Of a stretch of DNA of 64,000 bases, positions 26,016 to 64,000 are shown piece by piece; the first letter of the stretch is position 1, and each line of letters begins with the position of its first letter. Source of the DNA: Pseudomonadota bacterium (lineage in GTDB: Bacteria > Pseudomonadota > Gammaproteobacteria > Xanthomonadales > SZUA-38); assembly GCA_039033415.1 (NCBI GenBank), contig JBCCCR010000014.1, forward strand, positions 62,001-126,000, written 5' to 3'. Below the pieces are notes generated by a model. That model was not told where the DNA came from. It saw only the letters and a list, made by a program, of their open reading frames with translations, and did not search any database. A program made the translations under genes and the position numbers.

Positions 26016-28913
26016 ATGAGATCAGCAACCCCACGGACGGCGGTTGGACATCGCGTAAGCACAATCATCCTCAGCGCAGGCGCGCTGTTGAGCGGGACAG
26101 CACTCGCCGGCACTCCCGCAGCCCCCTGCAGCCCGGGCCTCGCTCCGCCCTCGCTGGAGGCCGGCGATCTGGGGCCGGCGCCGGGCGGCAACTTTGTTGA
26201 ACTGTGCTTTTCGGTTGTCAACGATCGGCCCCACAGCCGCAATGAGATCGCTTTTTCAAGTCTGGCGCTCCCGGCTGCCTCCGGGCTGACCGACACGAGC
26301 CGACTGGCGTTGACCGCCGGCGGTCGACAGGTGGCAGCCCAGTTTTCCATCCTCTCACGCTGGGGTGGACCGCTGGCTGACAACACTCGGCCGATTCGCT
26401 GGCTGCAGGTATCGCTGCCGGTCGCGCTGGCCGCGGACGCCCAGGCTGACTACCAGCTGCGAATTTACGACCAGCCCCCGCAAACCGCTGACCCGCTGGC
26501 GGTTACCCTGACGGACGAAAACCCACTCTGGCTGGTCGATACCGGCGTCGCGCGCTTCCGCGTCGATCCGGAAGACCCGGCCCTGCTCCAGGAGCTCTGG
26601 ACGGTGGCCGCTGGCAGCGCTGAACTGCTGGTGCGTGGCGGCGCGCAGGCGGGTCCACGGCTGGTATTCCTCGATGACCAGAACCAGTCGGTGGCGCTCG
26701 GGGCACAGCCGTTCAGCGCCGTGCCACTGCCGGGCGGAGTGTTTGCCGATGGGTTTGAGGACCCCGTGACGGGCATCGGCGGCGAAGCCAGCCTGGCCGC
26801 CGCCGTGGTTGACCCCGGCAGCTTTGAGATTCTCGAAGCGGGCCCGGTGAAGGTCACGGTGGCGGCCCGCGGTCACTTTGTCGACCCGGCCGGCAATAGC
26901 CTTTGCCAGCCCGACAACACAACCCCCTATGAAAGTCTGGGCTACAGCGTGGCGATGAGCTTTTTCCGCAACAGCCGAGACGTGGCGCTGGAGTTTGAGT
27001 TTCGCAACGAGTGCAGTGACGCCCAGTCGGGCCCCTGGACCGATCAGACACGCCGCGTCACCGAAGTGAGCTGGCAGTTTCCGCTGGTGGACCTCGCCGG
27101 CCAGACGGCGAGCTTTGGTGACGTCCTCGACGTGGGCAGCGGCCCGACCAGCTTGGCGCAGCTGCGCGGCGCTTTTGACGGCGGCGGCTGGCGGCGGCGA
27201 GCGCGGGCCAGCCGCAACGGTGCAATCGTCTCCGAGCCATCACGTTTTGCTCAGCCGCTGGTGGCGCGACTGTCCGCCGACTGGCTGCTTGGTCTGACCG
27301 CCGCATGGATGCGCTTTCGCGAACCCCAGTCACTGGAGGTTTCGGCCGAGGGGATCCGCGTTAACGTGGTTCATGGCGACCTGACGCTGGGCGAAGGAAA
27401 GGGAATCTGGAACCATGCGCTGCTGGCGGTTGACGCGCGCTCGAGCGAGCCGCTGGAAGACCAGCTTGCTGTGCTGCGCCAGCGACAGCTCGATTTCCTC
27501 GAGCGGGGCCTGCTGCCGCGCTTGCGGCTGGACCACCTTAACGCTGCCAGCGTTTTCCCGTCGCTGGGCACCGAGGCTCCCTCGGCGATCAAAACCGATT
27601 ACCTGGCCTGGATGAATCTGCTCCATGACCAGACCGCCGGCCTCGGCGGCCAGCATGAGCGTAACGCCACCTTCGGTTCCCAGCTATGGCCCGACACGGG
27701 CTCCTCCGATCCGTTCAACGTCGACGCCGGCGCGCCCAATAACGTCAGCTCGGGCATGAACTACTGGGACCCGGCCGGCAACGAGCTGCTGGAGTTTCTG
27801 CGCAGCGGTGAGCCGCGCTGGGCCTGGGACTTCGCGCTCGCCGGCTACCGCACACAGCTGCACGCCGCCTACCTGAACACCGGAAACAACAGCCACGGCA
27901 ATCGCGCCGGACTGGCGGTCACCTCGGGCGGACCGGGCTGCGAGCTATTTCAACCGCCGTGCGCGGCTGACGGCAGCGGCGGTGGCCAATGGCACCGGTC
28001 CGCCTTCGGCTCCGATGACTACACGTACGCCATGAGTGCCGAGCTCGGCTATACGCTGCGCCCCACCCTCGGCCTGCGAGAACGTTTTGCGCAGGCCGGA
28101 CGGACGGTGGTCGGCCGCTACGATCCGGCCATTCCAGAGGGCAACCGGGAAGCTTTTGTCAACGCGATCAACATCACCCGCCAGGTCATTCAGCATCTGG
28201 AGATGCTCGCCAACTGCGCGGAGTTTGTGCCCGGCCCCGAGGGCGTGAGCTGTGACCAGCGGCTCCGGGAGATTGTGGGCGAGCTGGCGAGAGACAACCT
28301 CGCGGCCGGCATCCTTTGCCAGGGCGAGGTGAATTTCGCCAGCGGCATAAACGGGGATATTCCCGGCCCGCCAGCGCCCCTGCCCGATCGTTGCTTCACG
28401 CCGCAGCAGTTTATGCAGAATGCGCTGATGCTGCCGTTCTTTCACCGCTATTTCTTTAACTACGGAGATCCGCCGCAGGGTTCGGTCGGGCGTGCCCTGG
28501 GCGAGGCGCCGCGCGTGCTGTACGAGCAGGGGCTGGCGCAGGAACCGGGTGGCGCGCTCGACGTCGCGGGCGACTGGGCCGCCGCCCTGGACTGTCAGCT
28601 CAGCGGTGACGGTCGCTCGGTCGTGAGCTGCCAGGCCTCACCGGATTCCGATCTGATGACGGCGATGTCCGCACACACCAAACCTCATACCGCCGCCATG
28701 CTGCTGCTGGGCCACGAGGTTAATCCCGGCATCAACCTTTGTACGGTTGCGCGGGCCGCGCTCGACAGCCCCGGCTTTGGCGGCCTTCCGACCGACGCCA
28801 ATGCCGGCTGGAACGGTGTGGGTCACTTCAACCAGGCGGGCTGGTGGAAAGGCAGTTCGCAGATGATGCAGTCGATGATTTTTGCCGTCGGGATCTACGA
28901 CACCTGCCCCTGA
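26016..28913 (+). CDS. Large exported protein with RIFT-barrel-like (PcRGLX/YetA-like) N-terminal domain
   Basis: A 965-residue protein with a signal peptide (STIILSAGALLSGTALAG). After the leader, residues about 55-155 have the layout of the RIFT-barrel domain of PcRGLX/YetA-like proteins: FSSLALPAASGLTDTS, then a basic-polar strand, then RPIRWLQVSLPV. That suggests a polysaccharide-lyase-like or glycan-acting protein, at low certainty. A mostly helical middle (TDYLAWMNLLHDQ, GMNYWDPAGNELLEFLRSGEPRWAWDFA, NTGNNSHGNRAG) resembles toroid-type lyase architecture. The protein contains an internal VFADGFED near residue 242, like the terminal VFRDGFE of the protein at the right edge. It is 56 bases after the peptidase gene with AAGGA ahead of the ATG. 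Catalytic residues cannot be named. Confidence 0.55.
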   Translation: MRSATPRTAVGHRVSTIILSAGALLSGTALAGTPAAPCSPGLAPPSLEAGDLGPAPGGNFVELCFSVVNDRPHSRNEIAFSSLALPAASGLTDTSRLALTAGGRQVAAQFSILSRWGGPLADNTRPIRWLQVSLPVALAADAQADYQLRIYDQPPQTADPLAVTLTDENPLWLVDTGVARFRVDPEDPALLQELWTVAAGSAELLVRGGAQAGPRLVFLDDQNQSVALGAQPFSAVPLPGGVFADGFEDPVTGIGGEASLAAAVVDPGSFEILEAGPVKVTVAARGHFVDPAGNSLCQPDNTTPYESLGYSVAMSFFRNSRDVALEFEFRNECSDAQSGPWTDQTRRVTEVSWQFPLVDLAGQTASFGDVLDVGSGPTSLAQLRGAFDGGGWRRRARASRNGAIVSEPSRFAQPLVARLSADWLLGLTAAWMRFREPQSLEVSAEGIRVNVVHGDLTLGEGKGIWNHALLAVDARSSEPLEDQLAVLRQRQLDFLERGLLPRLRLDHLNAASVFPSLGTEAPSAIKTDYLAWMNLLHDQTAGLGGQHERNATFGSQLWPDTGSSDPFNVDAGAPNNVSSGMNYWDPAGNELLEFLRSGEPRWAWDFALAGYRTQLHAAYLNTGNNSHGNRAGLAVTSGGPGCELFQPPCAADGSGGGQWHRSAFGSDDYTYAMSAELGYTLRPTLGLRERFAQAGRTVVGRYDPAIPEGNREAFVNAINITRQVIQHLEMLANCAEFVPGPEGVSCDQRLREIVGELARDNLAAGILCQGEVNFASGINGDIPGPPAPLPDRCFTPQQFMQNALMLPFFHRYFFNYGDPPQGSVGRALGEAPRVLYEQGLAQEPGGALDVAGDWAAALDCQLSGDGRSVVSCQASPDSDLMTAMSAHTKPHTAAMLLLGHEVNPGINLCTVARAALDSPGFGGLPTDANAGWNGVGHFNQAGWWKGSSQMMQSMIFAVGIYDTCP

Positions 28914-63717: not shown

Positions 63718-64000
63718 CTACTCAAAGCCGTCGCGGAACACCTGATCCCCAAGACCACCACCGGCGCTCGTGATGCAAAGTGACAATCCGCCATACTCCA
63801 GCGCGCCCAGGTCGGGCGCGCCGTCGTCGCGCGGCCGGCCACAAAAGTCTTCGGGCACAGATAGGACGGGCTGCCCTTGATCGAGGAACGCGCTGCCGTC
63901 CAGCAGGGCAAAATCCGCGTTATCCGGATCGACAAACCATGCCCGCATATCGGTCAGGGAAACGTTCTCGAGATTACCCTGCTCGCTACTGACTCCCTGA
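63718..64000 (-). CDS. Choice-of-anchor Q domain secreted protein, C-terminal part
   Basis: Only the last 93 residues are in the window; the N-terminus is beyond the right edge. They match the end of the choice-of-anchor Q domain: FVDPDNADFALLDGSAFLDQGQP, cited in part, then CGRPRDDGAPDLGALEYGG. A 20-residue tail ends in GDQVFRDGFE at the stop codon. Proteins with this domain are secreted beta-helix-like proteins that carry different C-terminal anchors in different lineages. Here the anchor position holds only the F-x-D-G-F-E tail, with no membrane helix or basic cluster, which suggests it is a sorting tag recognised by an unknown system. Confidence 0.75.
   Translation of the reverse strand, partial: QGVSSEQGNLENVSLTDMRAWFVDPDNADFALLDGSAFLDQGQPVLSVPEDFCGRPRDDGAPDLGALEYGGLSLCITSAGGGLGDQVFRDGFE

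Follow-up and report, generated by a model that had tools for sequence, protein, structure and literature searches.

F-x-D-[G/R]-F-E, a short motif recurring on exported proteins of Lysobacterales/Xanthomonadales and a candidate T2SS recruitment tag

Known sorting signals and how the tag compares

T2SS signals are generally regarded as structural and as specific to each protein (PMC7949064, PMC12369372), and the relevant passages of these two reports describe no sequence common to T2SS substrates. PelI carries an exposed loop that serves as a T2SS signal and interacts with GspC and GspD (PMC7949064), and secretion of VesB requires the PDZ domain of EpsC (PMC12369372). The tag described here, F-x-D-G-F-E, resembles the loop of PelI/Pel3 (partners OutC and OutD; PMC7949064) in that recruitment of a folded periplasmic protein would be decided by a short stretch exposed on it, with GspC/GspD as the partners. 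In contrast, the PelI/Pel3 signals are protein-specific and composite and have no common sequence, whereas here one six-residue sequence stands on dozens of unrelated proteins. Periplasmic PDZ domains of the DegS/DegP family offer a further likeness, since for the tag, too, we propose that a PDZ domain reads a short peptide. DegS ligands such as the YQF/YRF peptides end in a hydrophobic residue, however, and F-x-D-G-F-E ends in Glu, often with one to eight further residues; PDZ binding would thus be of the internal-motif type.

C-terminal sorting tags are the other close comparison. GlyGly-CTERM, which is paired with rhombosortase (PMC6219818, PMC13393428), is similar in being a C-terminal tag on several exported, T2SS-linked proteins and in being co-distributed with one genome-encoded partner. 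F-x-D-G-F-E differs in that it is without a Gly/Ser motif, hydrophobic helix or basic tail, has N-terminal and internal copies and comes with no evidence of processing. The tags of the PEP-CTERM/exosortase and MYXO-CTERM/myxosortase systems likewise mark the termini of many exported proteins that are unrelated within a genome, but F-x-D-G-F-E lacks their tripartite organisation, which includes a transmembrane helix. Only two of the 58 C-terminally tagged open reading frames (ORFs) analysed here had TM-like hydropathy within the last 45 residues, and 54 had at most one Lys or Arg among the last 12. The C-terminal hydrophobic helix and basic cluster of a PEP-CTERM/exosortase tag were therefore not found, in agreement with an earlier, sequence-only reading of this DNA, which had noted their absence with PEP-CTERM and LPXTG tags in mind. 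A processing signal with a TM anchor was ruled out on the same 58 tails. The Gly/Ser motif, hydrophobic stretch and positive C-terminal residues of GlyGly-CTERM were likewise absent from the tails, as were LPXTG, helix and positive tail from the 58 C-terminal cases, and no family corresponding to the folded T9SS C-terminal sorting domain was among the most frequent matches of 64 tagged proteins.

The tag fits the definition of none of the C-terminal sorting families tested. Being short, position-tolerant and without a membrane helix, it is not a variant of the known ones. Pfam and NCBIfam scans of the 64 tagged proteins returned no family corresponding to the tail; so short a motif could escape HMM scoring, and the lack of a family model is thus weak evidence of novelty. 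In the literature collection searched, no paper contained the motif strings tried, and searches on sorting and T2SS signals returned general papers only. The tag behaves like a sorting or secretion tag, and none of the NCBIfam or Pfam models found describes the class.

Recurrence, carriers and placement of the tag

The window, which is the whole stretch of 64,000 nucleotides analysed here (G000:C14:62001-126000), contains the following features.

63721-63738, minus strand: tag F-R-D-G-F-E, the last six residues of the protein, read from the sequence; one of 73 genomic copies
63718-63720, minus strand: stop codon, immediately 3' of the tag
63793-63915, minus strand: choice-of-anchor Q domain match, residues 368-408 of 432 (NF041518, 26.2 bits against a cut-off of 25; window coordinates converted from locus L064)
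63721-64000, minus strand: the tagged exported beta-helix protein, 3' part; it extends outside the window to G000:C14:127016
26742-26759, plus strand: internal tag copy F-A-D-G-F-E
26016-28913, plus strand: exported 965-aa protein with the internal tag; no Pfam match

The window-edge protein, read from the assembly, has 432 amino acids, a signal peptide and right-handed beta-helix matches. Translation of the minus strand at 63718-63738 gives VFRDGFE and a stop, the protein ending in GGLGDQVFRDGFE. It belongs to the choice-of-anchor Q proteins (NF041518), the domain match ends 18 residues before the motif, and the tail after the domain is the new tag. The VFRDGFE end, the domain ahead of it and the VFADGFED within the exported protein at 26016-28913, where FADGFED is internal, had all been described in the sequence-only reading and were found as described. 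A special tie of the tag to the anchor position of choice-of-anchor Q proteins, which it had also proposed, was not supported, as only 11 of the 64 tagged proteins match that domain.

A degenerate codon pattern for F-x-D-G-F-E had 73 matches in the 6.4-Mb genome, compared with one for the reversed pattern that served as control. Among 72 distinct open-frame occurrences, the tag lay no more than 20 residues from the stop in 59 (binomial p ~7e-77, given an expectation of 3%), and its Glu was the final residue in 20. Most tails had zero to eight residues after the tag, one to eight trailing residues being frequent. L, V or I preceded the first Phe in 54 of the 58 C-terminally tagged ORFs, and every called tagged protein (69/69) had one exact tag and no more. 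The tag was spelled with 36 of the 64 possible codon combinations, which rules out a DNA repeat or mobile element and indicates a protein motif. One-mismatch tags were present in the last 30 residues of 25 of 426 neighbours without the exact tag, versus 2 of 1278 internal 30-residue windows, and the one-change variants FADSFE, FANGFE and FxSGFE were likewise concentrated at C-termini, so that the exact count underestimates the tagged proteins. Loci of this genome with such C-termini (FADSFE, FANGFE, FASGFE) include L033, L053 and L084.

The carriers are exported proteins of many kinds. One simple rule, run over every ORF called in the loci examined, identified signal peptides in 49 of the 58 C-terminally tagged ORFs and in 164 of 426 neighbouring ORFs (Fisher p 2e-11); by eye, several of the nine tagged ORFs missed by the rule also seem to start with a signal peptide. 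The tagged set therefore carries the signal peptide for periplasmic export that is a mark of T2SS substrates. Recurrence of the tag at the C-termini of exported proteins had been suspected from the sequence alone, and the genome-wide motif search, run together with the comparison of export, found enrichment both at C-termini and among exported proteins. This confirms that the recurrent F-x-D-G-F-E pattern is real, and it is commoner than had been supposed. In an alignment of the 64 tagged proteins, column identity averaged 6% and no column was invariant; descent within one protein family was ruled out, the carriers being unrelated. Their domains include beta-helices, PMP repeats, PD40 and Kelch propellers, FG-GAP, CARDB, DUF1800 and GSDH, a set typical of exported proteins.

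The tag is not confined to the C-terminus. It directly follows the signal peptide in the DUF1800 proteins L034, L071 and L075 and in the teneurin-like protein L066, and it stands ahead of DUF11-type domains in L085 and L290, the latter from the genus of Wenzhouxiangella limi. In L089 (a subtilase) and L099, which belong to other families, it seemingly lies in a loop where the sequence resembles Fn3, YFWRVIAVNPCGS...VFVDGFE...KSFST, an assignment made by eye from the sequence where Pfam called no Fn3. These non-C-terminal tags sit in exposed-looking places. Copies after the signal peptide, in linkers and apparently in a loop speak against a cleaved C-terminal signal and suggest that the motif is read on folded proteins. 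We therefore take the tag for a linear motif tolerant of position, not a C-terminal anchor that is cut off.

The proposal of the sequence-only reading, an uncharacterised C-terminal processing or sorting tag, is thus upheld for the tag itself, with its C-terminal and export enrichment, and not supported for processing, against which the N-terminal, linker and loop copies speak. We also considered this proposal in a broader form, in which a dedicated enzyme or an outer-membrane receptor handles the tag. The many-to-one logic, the preference for C-termini and the enrichment in exported proteins resemble known CTERM tags, and 20 proteins terminate exactly at the Glu. However, the same motif occurs at mature N-termini and in linkers or loops, it has neither TM helix nor basic cluster, and one to eight residues often follow it. 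Further, no candidate enzyme was found among the genes profiled over the relatives (GspD, GspC, an NpdA-like gene and GSDH, along with the tag itself). We judge handling by such an enzyme or receptor to be improbable.

Two forms of the tag and the distribution of GspC

The number of F-x-D-G-F-E copies ranged from 0 to 77 per genome across 101 relatives. At least eight copies were present in 93 of the 398 genomes of an order sample, and no genome of another order had more than seven in a class-wide sample. The tag is widespread in most families of one order, Lysobacterales/Xanthomonadales (assigned from named records), and at background level elsewhere in the class. The labels G090, G043 and G644 used for genomes correspond to Chiayiivirga flava (L142), Wenzhouxiangella limi (L130) and Dokdonella fugitiva (L140), respectively.

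A second form of the tag is found in genus g11, that of W. limi. GSDH homologues of this genus end in FQDRFEQ, FQDRFEDGAP, FGDRFEEGEE or FRDRFEPID, whereas those of relatives end in FxDGFE. Counting F-x-D-[G/R]-F-E raised the genus from 0-4 up to 84 copies per genome (G036, 84; G098, 57; G487, 50; G011, 49), and at least eight copies were present in 19 of the 21 members tested. G502, from another genus of the same family, rose from 5 to 45 copies once the Arg form was counted, and GspC-negative genomes had 0-8 copies by this count unless already tagged. In a 400-kb sample of G036, FxDRFE was located at three C-termini and in one linker. Gly has given way to Arg throughout the genomes of the W. 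limi genus. Such a coordinated switch across many unrelated proteins indicates a common recogniser that co-evolved with the tag, and it is the strongest evidence for one. Judged from these sequence comparisons, a shared recogniser of the tag is well supported.

The same comparison of GSDH homologues that brought out the FxDRFE form showed that the untagged ones differ in their C-terminal domain. L177-L180, L184, L211, L213 and L214, from both GspC-negative and GspC-positive genomes, continue at the C-terminus for ~120-170 extra residues, possibly an alternative sorting domain. The C-terminus of the GSDH homologue L209 (G097) has a tandem pair of variant tags, LIFANGFEGDLIFLNGFESP, and the homologue L193, noted together with the small genomes of genus g39, ends in LIFAHGFE, perhaps another dialect.

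A structural or neutral origin, with the tag as a hydrophobic edge strand, cap or domain-start remnant spread by descent and domain shuffling with no receptor, was also weighed. Many carriers are beta-rich, and the hydrophobic residue ahead of the motif (54/58) would suit such an element. In contrast, the carriers differ in fold and have no common sequence, each has exactly one tag, and the tag is absent in relatives with large exported repertoires. A genus-wide Gly-to-Arg switch on unrelated proteins, moreover, needs a common selective agent, and we consider an origin of this kind very unlikely.

Profiling for a co-occurring partner, as the sequence-only reading had advised, pointed, among the genes profiled, to GspC of the T2SS and not to a processing enzyme. 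Presence of any T2SS (GspD, TIGR02517) was rejected as non-discriminating since 100 of the 101 relatives have it; length classes of GspD pointed to a gspC-gspD-gspE-gspF locus adjoining gyrB in G000. With the Arg dialect scored as tagged and kinship ignored, GspC (TIGR01713) was present with the tag in 56 relatives, the tag occurred without it in 4, GspC occurred without the tag in 4 and both were missing in 37 (phi 0.84). A PDZ-bearing GspC is accordingly found in 56/60 tagged versus 4/41 untagged relatives. In the order sample of 398, in which only FxDGFE was scored, GspC was called at E <= 1e-8, eight or more copies counted as rich and kinship was again ignored, GspC was detected in 84 of 93 rich and 56 of 305 other genomes (odds ratio 41). 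Genus g11, the Arg-dialect genus, makes up 25 of these 56 GspC-positive non-rich genomes; this largest group of exceptions, FxDGFE-poor with GspC present, carries FxDRFE instead. The contrast repeats across separate families: in family f2, the only FxDGFE-rich members (C. flava, G600 and G734) are exactly those with a GspC of E < 1e-20, and in family f12, 19 of 20 rich members have GspC. Exceptions occur in both directions. Tagged genomes without detectable GspC are G047, G058, G062 and G096 among the relatives and G477, G481, G541, G545 and G747 in the larger sample; several are incomplete, but G747 is 99% complete. GspC is present and the tag absent in G063, G081, G593, G620 and G731. The small genomes G063, G506 and G530 of genus g39 have GspC and few exact tags.

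A structure model of the W. limi protein has a TM helix, an HR domain and a PDZ domain, its alignment matches the solved OutC, PulC and EpsC, and with these domains and its position beside gspD-gspE-gspF it qualifies as GspC. Arg-type and Gly-type GspC differ at PDZ positions, and an acidic residue just after PDZ helix alphaB is present in 20/20 Arg-type proteins; the Gly-type protein of G526 has the same residue. The sharpest differences between Arg-type and Gly-type GspD are mostly in the N-terminal part. Both of these regions of GspC and GspD have been described as specificity determinants in Dickeya, going by the title of Bouley 2001 as cited in PMC12369372. The acidic residue of GspC and the GspD differences might be specificity positions, which we offer as a lead only, as ancestry alone could produce them.

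An alternative reader of the tag is a surface component. Secretion would then depend on other signals, and the tag would hold already secreted proteins on an NpdA-type S-layer or other surface component. An NpdA-like gene occurs in 58 of the 60 tagged relatives, among them all four that have no GspC, and in G000, G050 and G007 it lies beside a T2SS cluster, as does the published npdA (PMC10765051). In G000 the gene is L120:7009-8592:- (G000:C18:45508-47091; sequence NLNPDGLGEVLIYPYY...), two genes downstream of the gspD of an Xps-type T2SS other than the GspC-type locus, with a similar arrangement in G050 and G007. It has no Pfam or NCBIfam match, and its size, neighbourhood and lack of known domains are compatible with the description of NpdA (~500 aa, exported, no known domains, gsp-adjacent). 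The adjacent L120:476-6837:- includes a PPIC-type peptidylprolyl isomerase (Pfam). Reading the sequence by eye also suggests an ABC polysaccharide-export pair and a methyltransferase there, and the region may be an island for export of a surface layer or surface glycan. A surface receptor would accept any exposed position of the tag and could drive the Gly-to-Arg switch. Further, in Wenzhouxiangella AB-CW3, extracellular protease activity remains cell-associated (PMC7691419), which fits either a T2SS or an S-layer reading. On the other hand, the NpdA-like gene is present without the tag in 15 relatives, the association is weaker than for GspC (phi 0.66 vs 0.84), and identity with the published NpdA was judged by neighbourhood and an NPD-type N-terminus. 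Surface docking seems unlikely to us as the role of the tag.

A possible address code for the T2SS

Based on the distribution of GspC and the two dialects, we infer that the recogniser belongs to the T2SS. The best explanation, which we hold at about even odds, is that a GspC-type T2SS reads F-x-D-[G/R]-F-E and thereby recruits folded proteins for export across the outer membrane. In the mechanism we envisage, a tagged protein would cross the inner membrane by its signal peptide and then fold in the periplasm. F-x-D-[G/R]-F-E, usually after a hydrophobic residue, would be exposed as a short linear recognition tag and bound by the periplasmic region of GspC (PDZ) and/or the N-domains of GspD, and the T2SS would then pass the bound folded protein across the outer membrane. 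Since the T2SS recognises folded substrates, the tag may sit at the C-terminus, mature N-terminus, linker or loop. The more specific version, a transferable and position-tolerant T2SS address code that has a Gly and an Arg dialect, evolved together with the machinery and is read by the GspC PDZ and/or GspD N-domains, is put forward more tentatively, at somewhat short of an even chance. T2SSs are common in other orders of the class, and since the tag is not enriched there, it cannot be a general T2SS requirement.

The choice of substrates by the T2SS is an unsolved question. If our reading is true, a six-residue motif with a natural Gly/Arg switch would turn it into a testable peptide-receptor problem, and secretomes could be predicted from sequence across a large order that is mostly environmental. 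Whether or not the T2SS reads it, the tag marks out a coherent class of proteins, and it may serve as a label that directs them out of the cell.
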